Shown piece after piece: positions 2,110 through 26,104 of a DNA stretch of 64,000 nucleotides. Positions within the stretch are counted from its first letter, which is position 1. Each line of letters begins with the position of its first letter. Where the stretch lies: positions 1 through 64,000 of the forward strand of contig NZ_AULW01000015.1 in assembly GCF_000422485.1 (NCBI RefSeq). Direction: 5' to 3'. The notes beneath the pieces are model-generated. The model worked only from the letters and a program-made list of their open reading frames with translations, did not search any database and was not told the DNA's origin. The position numbers were made by a program, and so were the translations under genes. The stretch is from Paenibacillus pasadenensis DSM 19293. Its GTDB lineage: Bacteria > Bacillota > Bacilli > Paenibacillales > Paenibacillaceae.

Positions 2110-5100
2110 CTAGTTGAAGGTCAGATTGAAGCCGCTCTGCACGTAGTTCGTGCCGGCATAGGCGATGTTGCTCGTCTGCAGATTGTTGAACGTGGCGGCG
2201 CCGTTGCCGGTATAGGTGAAGATCGCCGCCCCTAGATGCGGTCCGGAGAAGCGCGAGGTCGTGATGCCGTCGCGGCCGGTGCCGTTGATCGTGACGGAGT
2301 TGAACACGATGTTGGAGAAGCCGCCGCCGTAGCCGAACTGGATGCCGTCGCGTTGGGCGTCGACGATGTCGATGTTCGTGAACGTCACGTTTCGGATCGC
2401 GTCATTGGACGCTTCCAGGTCGATCGCGCCGCGCTCGCCGTTGTACAGATCCTGGCTCGTGCCGCAGCGCAGGATCGTCGTATCGGAGAACGTGATGCCG
2501 GTATTGTTCGCGAAATGGTAGCCCGGGAACACCGTGTTCATGCGCAGGCCGGAGCCGCCGACGCAGTCGACGATGACGTTGCGCTCGGCCTTGTGGCCGC
2601 TGCCGCCGAAGAAGGCGATGCCCGCCGCGCGCCAGTTGTTCTCGATCGTATTGGACGAGAACGTGTTGTTGACGCCGGCCGGAGCGCCGTTCACGTCGCT
2701 CGTCCAGACGGCGAGGCCGTCGTCGCCGTTGCCCCGGACGCTGCTGTTGCGGACGGTCGAGCCGCTCGTGCCTTGGGCGAAGTTGACGCCGTCGGCCAGA
2801 TTGTTGCGGATGCGGCTGTTCTCGATGACGAGGCCGGTCGCCGTGATCGCCGGCGTATGGGCGTAGTCGCCGACCCAGAAGCCGCATTCGAAGTGCTCGA
2901 CCCAGACATTGCGGATGGACGAGTTCGTGCCGAAGTTGTCCATGAAGCCTTTGTAGATGGCGTTCTGGCCGTAGCGCGAGCGCAGCTTGGAGTTCAGATA
3001 GACGTTGCTGAAGTCCAGCTTGCCCGAGATACGCAGCGAGATGCCGCCGGATGCCGCGTTCGGGTTGGTGAACTGGATGTTCGTATGCCACATGCCCGCG
3101 CCGGTGATCGTCAGGTTCTGGATCATGCTGCTGGCCGAGCCGATTTCCCACATGCCGTTCAAATGGAACGTGCCGGTCGGGATGTACAGCGTCTTGCCGC
3201 CCGACACGGCTGCGGTCACGGCGGCCTTGAAGGCGGCCAGATCGTCCTGGCCGTCGTTCGCGACGGCGCCGTACTGCGTCACGGAGACGGAGTTCGCCGG
3301 CTGCGCGATCGCGGCCGGAACGTTCTCGATCTCGAGGAAGTCGACGCCGTACTCGATGCTGTCTCCGGCCGGCTTCTGGACGCGCACGACGTCGCCCGGC
3401 TGCAGCGGCGTGTCGAGCTTCCAGTGCACCTCGTCGAAGCGGAACAGCGGCCTGCCGCCGCCCGGAGCGTCAGCCGGCATGTCGCCGGAGAAGTACTGCC
3501 AGTTGTAGTAGGACGAGACCGGCACGTTTTTCACCTTGGTCCCGTTGACGTACAGGTCGAGCGAGCCGCTCAGGCCCATGCCGTCGGCCGAGTCGGGCAT
3601 CGTGTAGCGCATCGTGACGCCCGCTCCGCCTTCGTTCGGACGGACGGTCCACTGCGCGTAGGAGCCGCTCGACGGCAGCGAGATGTAGGCTTGGCCGGAC
3701 GCTTCCGAGGCGGTCAGCGCCTGGTTGAACGTCGGCGCGGTCATGAGCGCCGCTCCGCCGCCGCGCGTCGCGTCTTCCGTGTCGTAGCGCGTGTACGGCA
3801 CGCTCGCGCCGCGGGCGGAGTAGACCGTAAGCGGCGTCTGGCTGGCGTTGTTGCCTTGCTTGGCGGGCAGCTCGTTGCCGTCGGCGGTCACGGAGAGCGC
3901 GGCCGTGTACGAGCCGCTGACGGCCGTCCAGCTGCCGGAGAGCGCGACGTTCGCCGTCGCGCCTGGCGCGAGGCTGCCCGTGTACGAGCCGCTGAACGTC
4001 TGCACGGTCGCGCCCGCGGACGTCTTGAGCGTCACGCTGACCGGATGCGCGCCGCCTGCGGTGGCGATCGTGCCCTGGTTTTTCAGCTGTACGGTGAAGC
4101 TCACGCTGCTGCCGGCCGACGGAGCGGACGGCGTCCAGGAGACGGTGCCGACGAGGTCGGAGCTGGACAGCGGCGAGACGGTCAGATTGGACGGATGCGC
4201 ATAGCTGTTGTTGCTCTCGTTCTGCTCGAAGACGGCATTGCCCTCATCGGCCTTGGCGCCGATCGCGTAGGAGCCGGCCGCCTTGGCGCCGATCGCCAGC
4301 GATACGTTCGCCGACGCGCCGGCTGCCAGCGCGGGAGCGGCTGCGGTTCCGGCCAGCTCGCCGTTCACATAAAAGCCGACCGAGGATGCCGCGGCGGCTG
4401 CGCTGCCGCTGTTGCGGACGGTCGCCGTCAGCGTGATCGCGCTGTCCTCGGCCGGAGCGGACGGCGTCCAGCTCATCGTCTGGATCGTCAGATCCGGATT
4501 GGCCGCCGGCGTGCCGAATACCTGGAACTCGGCGATCTGTCCGGCCGGAGCGCCGCTGTTGACGGAGATGGCCAGCTGCAGCCGCTTGACGGTCGCGCTG
4601 AGCGGGATCGTCACGGTGTTGCCCGTCGCCGGATTGAACGTGTAGGACTGCGCGGCCTTCAGGCTCGTGAAGCTGGTCGTCGTCTGGTCATGGCCGAGCA
4701 CCTGGATCGTCTGGTTGCGCGTCGCCCATTCCGTCGCCGGATTCAGCTTGAGCACGATCGACGTGATCTGATGGTTCGCCCCGAGATCCAGCGTCAGGCT
4801 GCTCGGGTTGCCACCGCCCTCCCAGTAGGTCGAGGTCGAATTGTCGTTGGCGTTGGCCGCGACATACGTCTGCGTGCTGCTCGACGCGCTGATCGACTTG
4901 CCGATGGCGACATTGGAGCCCGGAGCCGGGGTCGGCGTCGCCGTCGGGGTTGCCGTCGGCGTAGGTGTCGGAGTCGGGGTTGCCGTCGGCGTAGATGTCG
5001 GGGTCGGGGTCGGGGTCGGCGTTGCCGTCGGAGTCGCGGTCGGGGTCGGAGTCGGAGCCGAGGCGCCGTAGATTTCCAGCTCGGACAGCTGCGCGGCCGG

Positions 5101-5568
5101 CCATGCGGTGTTCGCCGAGAAGCTCAGGCGGACGTAGCGAGCGCTGGCGGCCGGGAAGCTCGCCGTCGCCGAGTTGCCGCCCGCGGCTGGGTCGAACACA
5201 TAGCTAGCCGAGGCGGCCAGCGTCGAGAAGCTGCTTCCGTTCGCGCTGCCCTGGATCGTCAGCGTCTGGGTCCGCTTCTCCCAGGCAGCGGGCAGCTTCA
5301 TGACGACCTGATCGATGGAGACGCTGGCGCCCAGATCGACCTGGACCCACTGCGGAAAGGCGTTGTCCGTGCTTTCCCAGTATGTGCCCGCATTGCCGTC
5401 GCGAACGTTTTCCGGAGCGTACGTCTGCGTGTAGCCGCTCGAGGAGACCGCCTTGCCGAGCGCGAGATTGGGACCGCCTGCCGCTTCCGCCGGGCGCGAC
5501 GGCCCTACGGCCGCCAGCACCGTCGTGAGCAGCAGCAGTCCGGCGAGCGAGATGGACTTGAAGTTCAT
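2110..5568 (-). CDS. Secreted multidomain alpha-1,3-glucanase (GH87, mycodextranase type)
   Basis: A 1152-aa exported enzyme predicted to hydrolyse alpha-1,3-glucan (fungal wall glucan or mutan). Signal peptide about 1-29; F5/8C discoidin domain about 33-167; Thr-Pro linker 168-215; second discoidin domain about 216-355; two CARDB-like domains about 358-588; a CBM6/35-like domain about 590-750 with a YDTEDAT stretch; then a right-handed beta-helix catalytic domain opening VTQYGAVANDGQDD. D926, D949 and D950 have the spacing (0, +23, +24) that I recall for the catalytic aspartates of the Paenibacillus GH87 enzyme AglFH1. SD GGGAGG precedes the ATG, and a cre-like site overlaps the leader. The linker-coding DNA (4924-5066) is a low-complexity repeat. 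Family assignment is from remembered domain architecture. Confidence 0.85.
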   Translation of the reverse strand: MNFKSISLAGLLLLTTVLAAVGPSRPAEAAGGPNLALGKAVSSSGYTQTYAPENVRDGNAGTYWESTDNAFPQWVQVDLGASVSIDQVVMKLPAAWEKRTQTLTIQGSANGSSFSTLAASASYVFDPAAGGNSATASFPAASARYVRLSFSANTAWPAAQLSELEIYGASAPTPTPTATPTATPTPTPTPTSTPTATPTPTPTPTATPTATPTPAPGSNVAIGKSISASSSTQTYVAANANDNSTSTYWEGGGNPSSLTLDLGANHQITSIVLKLNPATEWATRNQTIQVLGHDQTTTSFTSLKAAQSYTFNPATGNTVTIPLSATVKRLQLAISVNSGAPAGQIAEFQVFGTPAANPDLTIQTMSWTPSAPAEDSAITLTATVRNSGSAAAAASSVGFYVNGELAGTAAAPALAAGASANVSLAIGAKAAGSYAIGAKADEGNAVFEQNESNNSYAHPSNLTVSPLSSSDLVGTVSWTPSAPSAGSSVSFTVQLKNQGTIATAGGAHPVSVTLKTSAGATVQTFSGSYTGSLAPGATANVALSGSWTAVSGSYTAALSVTADGNELPAKQGNNASQTPLTVYSARGASVPYTRYDTEDATRGGGAALMTAPTFNQALTASEASGQAYISLPSSGSYAQWTVRPNEGGAGVTMRYTMPDSADGMGLSGSLDLYVNGTKVKNVPVSSYYNWQYFSGDMPADAPGGGRPLFRFDEVHWKLDTPLQPGDVVRVQKPAGDSIEYGVDFLEIENVPAAIAQPANSVSVTQYGAVANDGQDDLAAFKAAVTAAVSGGKTLYIPTGTFHLNGMWEIGSASSMIQNLTITGAGMWHTNIQFTNPNAASGGISLRISGKLDFSNVYLNSKLRSRYGQNAIYKGFMDNFGTNSSIRNVWVEHFECGFWVGDYAHTPAITATGLVIENSRIRNNLADGVNFAQGTSGSTVRNSSVRGNGDDGLAVWTSDVNGAPAGVNNTFSSNTIENNWRAAGIAFFGGSGHKAERNVIVDCVGGSGLRMNTVFPGYHFANNTGITFSDTTILRCGTSQDLYNGERGAIDLEASNDAIRNVTFTNIDIVDAQRDGIQFGYGGGFSNIVFNSVTINGTGRDGITTSRFSGPHLGAAIFTYTGNGAATFNNLQTSNIAYAGTNYVQSGFNLTFN

Positions 5569-20799: not shown

Positions 20800-22005
20800 T
20801 CACATCTCATTTCGTACCATCAATATGAGGCATTCCACATGGCTCGTCTGCGGGAACATGTCCACCGGCTGCGCCCACTCCAGCCGGTAGCCTCCGGCGA
20901 GCAGCACCTTGGCGTCCTTGGCGAGCGTGGCCGGATTGCAGCTCACATAGACGAGCCGCGTCGGCCGCGCGGCCAGCACGGCGTCCAGCAGCTCGCGGCC
21001 GCAGCCGGTGCGCGGAGGATCGACGACGACGACGTCCGGGCGCACGCCTTGGCGCACCCACTCCGGCAGCAGCTCCTCCGCCCGGCCTTCATAAAAGCGG
21101 GCGTTGTCGATGCCGCTCGTCCGCGCGTTGTCGCGCGCGTCCAGCACCGCCTCCGGCAGCAGCTCGATGCCGCGAACCTCTCTCGCTCCGGCCGCGAGCC
21201 AGAGGCCGATCGTGCCGGTGCCGCAGTATGCGTCGACGACGAGCTCGCTGCCGCTGAGCGCGGCGGCTTCCTGGACGGCTCCGTACAGCTTGACCGTCTG
21301 CTGCGGATTGAGCTGGAAAAATGCGCGCGGAGAAAGCGAGAACCGCAGCTCGCCAAGCGTTTCCTCCAGCTTGTCCTCTCCCCACAGATGGATCGTCTTC
21401 TCTCCGAATACGAGCGGACTGCCGCCTTTGTGGATGTTGTGCGAGATCGAGCCGACCTGCGGCAGCTCGCGCCTCGCCGCCTGCACGAAGCGTCGGCTGT
21501 CCGGGAAGCGGTCGCCGGCGGTGACGAGCGTCAGCTGCAGCTTGCCTGTGCGGCGGCTGACGCGCACGGCGATCGTCTTGACGATGCCTTGGCGCTTCTT
21601 CTCCTCGTAAACGGGGATGTCCAGCTCTTCGAGAATCCGCTTCGTCTTCTCGACCGCTTCGTTCAGGCGCGGATCGTGGACGGCGCAGCCGCTGATGTCG
21701 ACGAGCTGCCTCGTGCCGAGCGAGTACAGCCCGGCGACGAGCCCGCTCTCGCCGCGTCCGGCCTGCAGCTGCGCCTTGTTGCGGTACGCCCAGGGATCGT
21801 CCATGCCGAGGATCGGACGGAGCGGCAAGCGGTCGATGCCGGCATAACGCTGGAACGACTCCCGCACGAGCTCCTCCTTGGCCCGCAGCTGCGCTTCATA
21901 GGTCATATGCTGCAGCTGGCAGCCGCCGCAGCTGTCGTAGACCGCGCATGGCGGAACCTGCCTGTCGGGGGACTTCTTCTCGATCTCGACGAGATCGGCC
22001 TGCAA
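20800..22005 (-). CDS. 23S rRNA (uracil-C5)-methyltransferase, RlmD/RlmCD type, lacking a full TRAM domain
   Basis: Methylates C5 of a uracil in 23S rRNA using S-adenosylmethionine. Four Cys for an Fe-S cluster are seen in PPCAVYDSCGGCQLQHM and DISGCAVHD. The SAM fold has VVDAYCGTGTIGLWLA, then VVVDPPRTGCG, and the nucleophile lies in VYVSCNPATLAKD. The start is unusual: the frame opens after a TAG with only YGRLQ before the TTG at 22005. That YGRLQ plus VEIEKKSPDR looks like the last strand of a TRAM domain whose first about 50 residues are missing. The ger operon begins about 50 bp away on the other strand. The 255 bp downstream (20545-20799) show no gene. Confidence 0.88.
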   Translation of the reverse strand: MQADLVEIEKKSPDRQVPPCAVYDSCGGCQLQHMTYEAQLRAKEELVRESFQRYAGIDRLPLRPILGMDDPWAYRNKAQLQAGRGESGLVAGLYSLGTRQLVDISGCAVHDPRLNEAVEKTKRILEELDIPVYEEKKRQGIVKTIAVRVSRRTGKLQLTLVTAGDRFPDSRRFVQAARRELPQVGSISHNIHKGGSPLVFGEKTIHLWGEDKLEETLGELRFSLSPRAFFQLNPQQTVKLYGAVQEAAALSGSELVVDAYCGTGTIGLWLAAGAREVRGIELLPEAVLDARDNARTSGIDNARFYEGRAEELLPEWVRQGVRPDVVVVDPPRTGCGRELLDAVLAARPTRLVYVSCNPATLAKDAKVLLAGGYRLEWAQPVDMFPQTSHVECLILMVRNEM

Positions 22006-22056
22006 TTGGAGGCGTCCATACTATACCCGAAATTCAGGAAGAAAGCGGGTGTGATC

Positions 22057-23379
22057 GTGAAGGGTAGAGTGATGAATGTCTTCCAGGTTTTTCTCGTCCT
22101 CATGCTGTCCGACGGCCTGGCTTGCCACGTCATCATCAATCCGATGCTGCTGGATGCATCCGGTCGCGATGCCTGGATCACCGCGATCGCCGCGGGCGTG
22201 TTCTTCGTGCCCTGGAGCCTGATGATCGTCTACATCATGAAAAAAAGCGGCCAGCAGCATTGGCGGGAATGGCTGGGCGAGCATATGCATCCGGTCTTCT
22301 CCTGGATTCTCGTCGTTCCGGTGCTGCTGGTAATGTTCCTGCAGGCGATGGAATGCGTCATGCAGACCGTCAGCTGGCATATCACGAACTATTTGCCCGC
22401 CAGCAATCCGCTGCAGCTCGGGATGCTGCTCATTTTCATCTGCGTCATGCTCTGCTGGTGGGGCTTTCGCGTCGTAGCCGTCGCCTCGGGCATCCTGCTG
22501 CCGATTGTCATCGGACTCGGCCTCCTCGTCGCCTCCGGCAACAGCGAGATCAAGGACATGTCGCTGATGCTCCCCATTCTGGAGCATGGCTGGAATCCCG
22601 TCTTTCGGGGCATGATCTACGCCGGCGCCGCTTATTCGGAGCTCATGTACATCCTGCTGCTGCAGCACCGGATCCGCGGACGAATGAAGGCGTGGCATAT
22701 GCTGATCTACTCCTGCGTCATCGTTTTCATCATGGTCGGTCCCATCATCGGCGCGATCACCGAATTCGGTCCCGAGGAAGCGGCCAACCAGCTCACCTCC
22801 CCTTACGAGCAGTGGAGGCTGCTGCGCATCGGACAGTATATCGAGCATCTGGACTTCTTTCCGATTTTCCAGTGGCTGTCCGGCGCGTCGATCCGCATCG
22901 CGCTGCCGGTGCTCGTGCTTGCGGAGACGTTCGCCAGCAGAAACGAGAAGGCCCGCCGCATCTTCATCCTGGCGGTGTTTCTATTTTACGGCGCCGCCAC
23001 GTTCGTTCCTTTGGACGAGTACGATATGTACCTGTTCATGTACACCTATTTCATGCCGGGAGTCACGCTCGTGCTGCTGCCGGCATCGCTAGCCTGGTTC
23101 ATCGTCGCCCTGTGCATCAAGCCGGACCGAAGGAGGGATTCCGATGGAGGACAACCGCAAGACGGATCAGACGGACAACCGGAAGAAGAAGGAAGCGGAC
23201 AAGGACGAAGAGCAAGCCGAAGGAGCAGCCGGAGCCGGATCGGAAGAGCGGACCTCCGAGCACGAAGCAACCGAATCCGGACGAGCGTCCGGACGGCCGC
23301 AAGCCTCAGGGGCAAGCGCGGCGCCAGGAAGCGGAAGCGCAGGAGGCGCCGGCTAAAGGCTGGACGAAGGAGGAGCTGA
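22057..23379 (+). CDS. GerAB-type spore germination permease with aberrant C-terminal extension
   Basis: A polytopic membrane protein of the APC-like GerAB family (about 10 helices, residues 1-355), which takes part in sensing small-molecule germinants in the spore inner membrane. Typical features are NVFQVFLVLMLSDGLA at the start and the PLDEYDMYLFMYTYFMPG region near the end. The start is uncertain: GTG 22057 gives the usual short N-terminus, and ATG 22072 has a better SD. The family normally stops near residue 360, but this frame has no stop there. It runs about 80 more codons as an Arg/Ser-rich tail across the start of gerAA. That tail is probably not a normal part of the protein. Confidence 0.85.
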   Translation: MKGRVMNVFQVFLVLMLSDGLACHVIINPMLLDASGRDAWITAIAAGVFFVPWSLMIVYIMKKSGQQHWREWLGEHMHPVFSWILVVPVLLVMFLQAMECVMQTVSWHITNYLPASNPLQLGMLLIFICVMLCWWGFRVVAVASGILLPIVIGLGLLVASGNSEIKDMSLMLPILEHGWNPVFRGMIYAGAAYSELMYILLLQHRIRGRMKAWHMLIYSCVIVFIMVGPIIGAITEFGPEEAANQLTSPYEQWRLLRIGQYIEHLDFFPIFQWLSGASIRIALPVLVLAETFASRNEKARRIFILAVFLFYGAATFVPLDEYDMYLFMYTYFMPGVTLVLLPASLAWFIVALCIKPDRRRDSDGGQPQDGSDGQPEEEGSGQGRRASRRSSRSRIGRADLRARSNRIRTSVRTAASLRGKRGARKRKRRRRRLKAGRRRS

Positions 23380-24815
23380 AGCGCGTTTTCGAGCATTCGG
23401 CCGACGTGATCGTCAAGAGCTCTTTTTTTGGACGGGACAACGCCAAGGAAGTCGTGCTCGTCTTTTCGGTCGGCCTCTGCGACACGATGATGATCAACCG
23501 GCATGTCCTGCCATCGCTGAGCGCGCATTATGACCGCGACGAATCGCTGACCCGTCCGCTGCTCCGGCTGTCGGACGCTCTCACGATCGAAGGCTTCGTC
23601 AAGACGCCGATACGGACCGAGCTCGAGGAGGCCGTCTATTCCGGAGCGCTGCTGCTTCTATTCGTCCGGGAAGGCTTGCTGGCGTCCGTCGATCTGTGCA
23701 ACGCGCCGAGAAGGACGCCGGACGAATCAAGCACCGAGATCTCGATCAAAGGTCCGCGCGATTGCTTTATCGAGGATCTGGACACGAACGTCGCGCTGAT
23801 CCGCAAGCGGATCCGCTCCAGCTCGCTGCATGTGGAGGGCTTCACGATCGGCAGGCGGACCCGCACGCGGATATCGCTGCTGTACATCCACGATATCGCG
23901 GATCCAAAGCCGCTCGAGGAGGTGCGCAAGCGGCTTCGGGAAATCGACATCGACGGCCTGTATTCGATCAACCAGCTGGAGGACCTGCTGCTGCACAATC
24001 GGTTCAAGATCCTGCCGCTGATCGACTTCACCGGCCGGCCCGACTTTGTCGTCACGAGCCTGCTCAACGGGCGCTTCACGATTATCGTCGACGGCAATCC
24101 GATGGTGCTGATCGCCCCGGCGACGCTGTCGTTCATCCTGAAGTCGCCGGAAGACGTGCACTTCAACTTCTCTTATGTATCGTTCTCCAGAATCATCCGG
24201 ATTTTGAGCATGTTCCTTTCGATCTTCCTGCCCGGAATATGGATCGCGCTCATGGCGTTCCATCAGGACCAGATTCCCTTCCGCCTGATGGCTACGATCT
24301 CGGTCTCTCGGCTTGGGCTGCCGCTGTCCGCGCAGATGGAGATGCTGCTGCTCCTGCTGCTGCTCGAAATCTTCAAGGAAGCGGGCGTCCGGCTCCCGAG
24401 CGCGATCGGGCAGACGCTCACCTCGATTGGCGGCCTCATCATCGGCGACGCCGCCATCCGGGCCGGCCTCGTGTCGCCGTCGGTCGTCGTCGTCGGGGCG
24501 ATTACGGCCGTAGCGGGCGTGACGCTGGTCAACCAGGTGCTCAGCACGGTCGTGAGCATCTTCCGGATGTTCTTCTTTTTCCTCGCTTCCTTTTTCGGCA
24601 TGTACGGGGTCATCCTCGGCATCGTGCTCATGGTCGCCTACATGGCGAGGCTGCAGTCGTTCGGCGTGAGCTATCTCGCTCCGCTGTCGCCGCTGCTGCC
24701 GAAGGATGCGTTCATGTCGTACCTGCGGCTCCCGTTCGCCTATATCACCAAGCGGCCGGACAGCATCGCCAAATCCGGCCAGGACGACGACCATCAAGGA
24801 GGCGACATGACTTGA
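23144..24815 (+). CDS. GerAA-type spore germination protein, +1 frameshift near the N-terminus
   Basis: GerAA-type germinant receptor subunit of the spore inner membrane. The ATG at 23144 has an excellent AAGGAGGG SD and codes MEDNRKTDQTDNRKKKEADK; that frame ends at 23356. The rest, from about 23205 to the stop at 24815, is one base ahead: a hydrophilic KSKPKEQPEPD linker, WTKEELKRVFEHSADVIV, the soluble domain, then about five membrane segments (residues about 345-530). Codon third positions switch from one frame to the other near 23200-23230. Removing one base gives 556 codons. No good start exists in the second frame before GTG 23406. This is either a mutated gene, a sequencing error, or less likely a programmed shift. 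Confidence 0.8.
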
Positions 24816-25986
24816 GGAAGCTCCTTCTCGGAATTCTGGCAGCGCTGCTGCTGTCCGTGCAGGGCTGCGGCAACTCGAAGGACACCAGTCGCTGGCTTAC
24901 GTGTCGGCTCTCGGACTGGACTACAAAAACGGCAAGTATGTCGCGTACGTCCAGGTGCTGAACTTCAGCAACATCGCGCGCAGCGAAACGGTCACGCTCG
25001 GCCAAGAAGTGCCGATCTGGATCGGGCGCGGCGACGGAGAGACGATCTCGGGAGCGATCGCCGAGACGAACGCCACCTCCCAGTCGCGGCTGTTCTGGGG
25101 CCATGTGAAGGCGGTCATCGTGACGGAGAATTTCATGAAGCGCGGGCTGTCCGGGCTCACCTCCTCGCTGCTGCGGGACAGGCAAGCCCGATATACCGTG
25201 CTGTTCTACGGAACGAAGGAAAAGATGGAGGACATTCTGACGCAGAAGTCGATCTTCAACCTTTCGCCGCTGGATACGATGATGTTCACCGCCGTGCAGA
25301 TGAATACGCAGAAGGCGTACATCCTGCCCGTGAACGCGAACAAAGCGTTCGCGTATCTGAACGAGCCCGGCGGCGCCGGCATGCTGCCTGAGATCGGCAT
25401 CTATCGCCACACCTGGCACGAGGACTTCAAGAAGAAGCCGATGTTCATCATCAAAGGGGCGTTTTTCTTCGAAGGCTACAAGTACAAGAACCATATGGCG
25501 ATGGAGCCGCTCAAGGGCATACGCTGGCGGGACGAGAAGCTGGACCTCACTCCGCTCAAGCTGCTTAAAAATGGCCGGCCATCCGCCGTGCTCATGCTCG
25601 GCCATCCCCGGTTCTCGATCAAGATCCGAGTCGAGCAAGGCAAGCCGCGCTACGACGTCAAGATCAAGACGACCGGCTATATTTCGGAGCAGGTCCAAAA
25701 GGCTACGATCCAAGAGCTGCAGAACGAAGCGGCACTAGCGATCCGCAAGGAAGTGCAGAATACGTTCGCGATCGCCACGGCGGAAAAGACGGACTGCTTT
25801 CGGCTGCAGCTCGAGCTGTACCGCAAGCATCCGGAGCTATTCCGGCAGCTGATGCGTCAAGGTCCGTTTTTCCTGGAAAGCGACTCCCTCGCCTCGGTCG
25901 AGGCGGACGTGTACATCCGGACGACCGGCAAGTTCAAGGGCAGCGTATATTCGGACAAGCAAGACGGCGATGAAGACGGGTCCTGA
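24812..25986 (+). CDS. GerAC-type spore germination lipoprotein, -1 frameshift after the lipobox
   Basis: GerAC-type lipoprotein subunit of the germinant receptor. A TTG start at 24812 overlaps the gerAA stop. It encodes a lipoprotein signal peptide, MRKLLLGILAALLLSVQGC, with the lipidated Cys at residue 19. That frame loses similarity after NSKD. The frame one base back resumes with QSLAYVSALGLDYKNGKYV and continues normally to 25986, through a domain ending in VEADVYIRTTGKFKG. One base appears to be missing near 24880. With it restored the gene would have 392 codons, the usual size. Downstream translation could otherwise start at GTG 24901 but would yield no signal peptide. Confidence 0.82.
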
Positions 25987-26000
25987 GGGGCCCCTTTTTT
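25978..26000 (+). terminator. Terminator of ger operon
   Basis: GGGTCC-TGAG-GGGCCC (one G-T pair), followed by C and six T residues; the stem overlaps the gerAC stop codon. Confidence 0.75.
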
Positions 26001-26065
26001 GCCGTTTTTGGTTTATAATCGACGAATCAGGTTTACATAATTATTCGTACAAATTTAATGGGGCG

Positions 26066-26095
26066 AAAAACGACCCGACGCAGCCTTGCTGCGCC
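26066..26095 (-). terminator. Possible terminator of MFS gene
   Basis: On the minus strand GCGCAGC-AAG-GCTGCGT forms a hairpin; GTTTTTCG follows a few bases later. Confidence 0.45.
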
Positions 26096-26104
26096 AGGCA
26101 CTTG

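Follow-up and report, generated by a model that had tools for sequence, protein, structure and literature searches.

Two frameshifts of opposite sign in a GerA-type germinant receptor operon of Paenibacillus pasadenensis

Disrupted ger operons occur in Bacillus anthracis, and programmed +1 frameshifting is a feature of prfB. A disrupted GerA-family pseudogene, CBO1973A, is described for Clostridium botulinum in PMC4161481, and according to the account in PMC8038838, L-alanine activation of the Bacillus subtilis GerA receptor needs all three subunits. Here, we analysed a window of 64,000 nucleotides from P. pasadenensis DSM 19293 (contig NZ_AULW01000015.1, positions 1 to 64,000), which carries a GerA-type germinant receptor operon in the order gerAB-gerAA-gerAC. 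Like GerA-type receptors, it has three adjacent, co-directional subunit genes (+ strand), and its GerAA body matches the whole domain; the locus differs from them in its gene order, in a long hydrophilic N-terminal tail of gerAA that overlaps the gerAB tail, and in the gerAA and gerAC bodies, neither of which shares the frame of its start codon. With CBO1973A and the B. anthracis loci it shares the disruption of a reading frame in a redundant receptor gene, but it retains the complete, conserved operon, altered by two small indels. Inactivation of ger genes is already known, and this locus presents no new mechanism; no report of it was found in our literature searches.

Two frame breaks in the operon

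The GerA, Spore_permease and GerAC domains adjoin on one strand, and their models (PF03323, PF03845, PF25198 and PF05504) all scored over cut-off; the NCBIfam models GerXA, GerXB and GerXC were also matched, at scores below their equivalog cut-offs. The parts of the operon are as follows.

22072-23379, + strand: gerAB-like permease gene, GerXB type (PF03845, E=2.5e-18; TIGR00912, 152.6 bits, over cut-off)
23144-23356, + strand: gerAA start ORF of 70 codons, ATG with a strong SD site
23204-23222, + strand: gerAA frame change, net +1 modulo 3 (codon-usage switch at 23213, alignment switch at 23215)
23361-24815, + strand: gerAA body, open, with the conserved GerA domain (PF03323, E=8.5e-139; protein 89% identical to that of G001, the nearest relative)
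24812-24961, + strand: gerAC start piece, TTG with SD site, encoding a signal peptide and a lipobox-like cysteine before running out of frame to a stop
24883-24888, + strand: gerAC frame change, net -1 relative to all six relatives
24889-25986, + strand: gerAC body, Spore_GerAC_N and Spore_GerAC (PF25198, 7.3e-29; PF05504, 2.6e-18)

A working receptor needs each subunit in frame; the gerAB body is read from an in-frame start, and the gerAA and gerAC bodies are not. In gerAA, ATG 23144 is preceded by AAGGAGG and its ORF stops at TAA 23354-23356, while the GerA domain sits in the +1 frame relative to this ATG and is open to TGA 24813-24815 without an internal stop. The ORF and PF03323 positions thus bear out a sequence-only reading of this DNA, which had placed the SD-led start and the GerA body in different frames. 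A maximum-likelihood fit of codon usage, with the conserved genes of the same contig as reference, put the frame switch at 23213 (23204-23222 lying within 3 log units), and alignment to G001 independently set it at 23215; both positions fall inside the interval 23200-23230 that had been predicted. Over 23144-24815 (1672 nt) the two frames are offset by a single base, and the proposed recovery of a 556-codon gene by removing one base is therefore arithmetically correct. That the second frame has no other good start was likewise confirmed: the nearest upstream start in the body frame, GTG 23112, lies within gerAB and has no SD match, and the downstream starts, GTG 23406 (no SD) and GTG 23454 (5-nt SD match), both lie inside the conserved domain. 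The distance from the ATG to the domain is 204, 297, 213, 213, 69 and 69 nt in six same-genus orthologues, all multiples of 3, compared with 217 nt in the window, where gerAA has a tail exceeding that of G001 by 13 nt; since the tail length varies, an indel of any size 3n+1 could account for the change.

The gerAC gene is also frameshifted, by a net -1 at about 24885, between the lipoprotein signal and the domain, a break that the earlier reading had missed. The signal that follows TTG 24812 is lipoprotein-like and an SD site precedes the TTG; the body frame is not reached from this codon, and its first in-frame start codon is GTG 24901. All six relatives are in frame at about 24885. The operon is broken twice, by the gerAA and gerAC shifts. 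The locus is present in seven of eight genus genomes, the window's own included, and the disruption is absent from six of six same-genus orthologues in both genes; for the gerAA split, this was the comparison with relatives that had been proposed as a check. We rejected the TTG start of gerAC as a sign of decay, as gerAC of G006 and G007 also begins with TTG. A terminator-like hairpin with a T-run at the end of gerAC (25978-25993) fits the end of an operon. No Rfam match was found over 21900-26100, and a scan of the same interval for sigma-70-like promoters gave one hit against 1.3 expected, which is uninformative for a spore gene.

The overlap of gerAB and gerAA

Genus-wide, the gerAB tail and the gerAA start share 56-209 nt, read in different phases: with the gerAA starts judged from SD sites, the gerAB frame continues beyond the gerAA start for 200 nt in G001, 134 in G005, 209 in G006, 170 in G007, 56 in G004 and 56 in G003. 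At loci of other genera with both ends readable, the overlap is mostly 4 nt and at most about 53, or is replaced by a gap. Because of this out-of-phase overlap, the +1 change in the window's gerAA also shifts the gerAB tail, which had escaped the earlier reading. The conserved gerAB body is intact and untouched by the indel, and its C-terminal tail is off-frame from about 23213 to TGA 23377-23379, where gerAB now ends. In the gerAA start ORF, the first part is the gerAA N-terminal tail and the last part matches the gerAB tail frame of the relatives, its terminal TAA aligning with the gerAB stop of G001.

The open overlap exceeds synonymous resampling of gerAA in three of six genomes (P = 0.005, 0.006 and 0.011), the other three giving P = 0.185, 0.68 and 0.65. 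Substitutions between G006 and G007, sorted by codon position, number 6/12/11 in the overlap, without a third-position excess, and 17/9/84 in the body. These patterns faintly hint that both frames of the overlap may be in use (dual coding).

Receptor loss or sequencing error

We consider it probable that the operon was recently inactivated in this lineage by two small indels, as ordinary decay of one redundant germinant receptor. Both shifts are present in the assembly and absent from the six relatives. The first indel, at about 23213 where gerAB and gerAA overlap, would be a net +1; the second, at about 24885 in gerAC, a net -1. Translation from ATG 23144 would yield a hydrophilic peptide of 70 residues and then stop, and GerAC would be cut short directly behind the lipid anchor and lack its domain; since GerAA would not be reached from its start and GerAC would be cut, no working receptor would be expected to form. 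The earlier claim that the receptor is not made unless ribosomes shift frame holds in that full-length GerAA synthesis would be stopped, and its picture was incomplete in lacking the gerAC shift and the altered gerAB tail. With 12 GerA-subunit loci in the genome (a split pair on contig C2 counted once), other receptors remain, which is probably why the loss is tolerated. If recent inactivation is correct, the strain cannot use one nutrient signal for waking spores, annotation should not count this operon among the working receptors, and the locus illustrates cleanly both how one receptor out of many paralogues was recently lost and how a single indel alters two overlapping genes.

The operon may instead be intact in the organism, with two single-base errors of sequencing or assembly in it, which we regard as possible but rather unlikely. 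Such errors would fit a draft genome of 49 contigs, and also the gerAA and gerAC bodies, which are fully open with no internal stop accumulated and bear no mark of relaxed selection. Pooled over the three genes, the window lineage carries no excess of amino-acid change relative to G001, with 67 versus 47 amino-acid changes (gerAB 25 vs 14, gerAA 20 vs 12, gerAC 22 vs 21) beside 53 versus 31 fourfold-site changes (8 vs 9, 22 vs 13 and 23 vs 9, respectively). A loss must therefore be very recent, unless the shifts are errors.

Sequencing error would spread frameshifts over ordinary genes, and no such spread was seen among the genes screened. When 174 genes of G001 (59,253 aa) were aligned to contig C5 of this genome, 149 were in frame throughout and 25 rows had a lasting frame change. 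Three of these rows are the present operon (gerAB and gerAA share one event, gerAC has the other), two are one break on the G001 side, in a protein whose 1152-residue ORF is intact in the window at 2110-5568, and 20 are over-extended ends or diverged or compensated stretches, so that the aligned C5 genes include no further break in this genome. A screen of 80 genes (25,789 aa) on contig C2, a region that is not an unbiased sample because it was picked for a split gerA already seen there, gave 12 rows with one real break on this side, at about C2:238327, where a second gerAA paralogue is split mid-domain by a frameshift. Rows were sorted by codon-position substitution pattern, the 20 C5 rows and the other C2 rows being judged by eye; individual frame-change runs no longer than 30 nt are too short to call. 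The screens covered genes present in G001 at 60% identity or more, and reverse screens, with genes of this genome as queries and G001 as target (26 rows on C5 and 16 on C2), were used only to assign the side of a break. A longest-ORF frame screen, whose 12 and 23 split ORFs included many shadows on the wrong strand of this GC-rich DNA, was dropped and replaced by selection on codon-position-3 substitutions. An ORF of 71 codons near C2:235205 was rejected as a shifted gene, the same short intact ORF being present in both genomes with a non-coding upstream part.

Over all 254 genes aligned to the sister genome G001, the gene-breaking shifts on this side thus number three: the pair in this operon and a third in a different gerAA paralogue, again a ger gene, which counts against error. 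By hand arithmetic, the chance that a random second break falls in the same operon, given one, is about 2/173. The control families of this genome contained no frame-split pair among 129 matches (57 MFS_1 and 72 SBP_bac_1; pairs checked by hand, with eight adjacent MFS pairs all in one frame), and neither site has a homopolymer of 3 or more (none at 23204-23222 nor at 24883-24888). Taken together, the distribution of the frameshifts and the lack of homopolymers favour mutation over error.

Selected loss, partial function and recoding

Frame breaks affect two of the 12 GerAA loci in this genome, the window counted, and two of 10 in G001, and no frame-split GerAA was found among 58 matches in six other genus genomes, a count that misses N-terminal breaks like the window's. 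It is conceivable that the sister pair is repeatedly switching off germination receptors and that loss is a running, selected process that tunes spore waking; we put this forward tentatively and think it improbable.

Some function might persist if ribosomes that had terminated at 23356 or 23379 re-initiated at GTG 23406 or GTG 23454 to make a shortened GerAA, the former GTG lying about 27-50 nt past the two stops and the latter having its SD match. However, both codons are inside the conserved domain (PF03323 from about 23373) and would give domain-truncated products, gerAC is broken too, and an in-frame GTG with equal SD score and offset occurs in intact relatives such as L002, so that it is not an adaptation. 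We therefore judge partial function very unlikely.

Programmed +1 frameshifting to full-length GerAA, at which the sequence-only reading had hinted, or a phase-variable locus, is hardly credible: recoding needs an intact, conserved body frame, which is present, and full-length GerAA would depend, as in prfB, on a +1 shift close to the start, but unlike prfB the site has no in-frame stop, slippery codon or conservation, there is no slippery, mono- or dinucleotide run at 23204-23222, the six relatives need no shift, and gerAC would need an unrelated shift of opposite sign. Phase variation by a simple repeat was rejected, as there is none at the site; the nearest short repeat (about 23181-23192, by eye) is trinucleotide and would keep the frame.

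Other genes are also split in the sister genome. Two gerAA genes of G001 are divided between frames, at about 4329278 and about 3882600 of its contig C1, and the one at about 4329278 is intact in this genome. Elsewhere in the window, a minus-strand ORF of 1152 residues at 2110-5568, beta-helix-like by eye, is intact here and split by a frameshift in G001.
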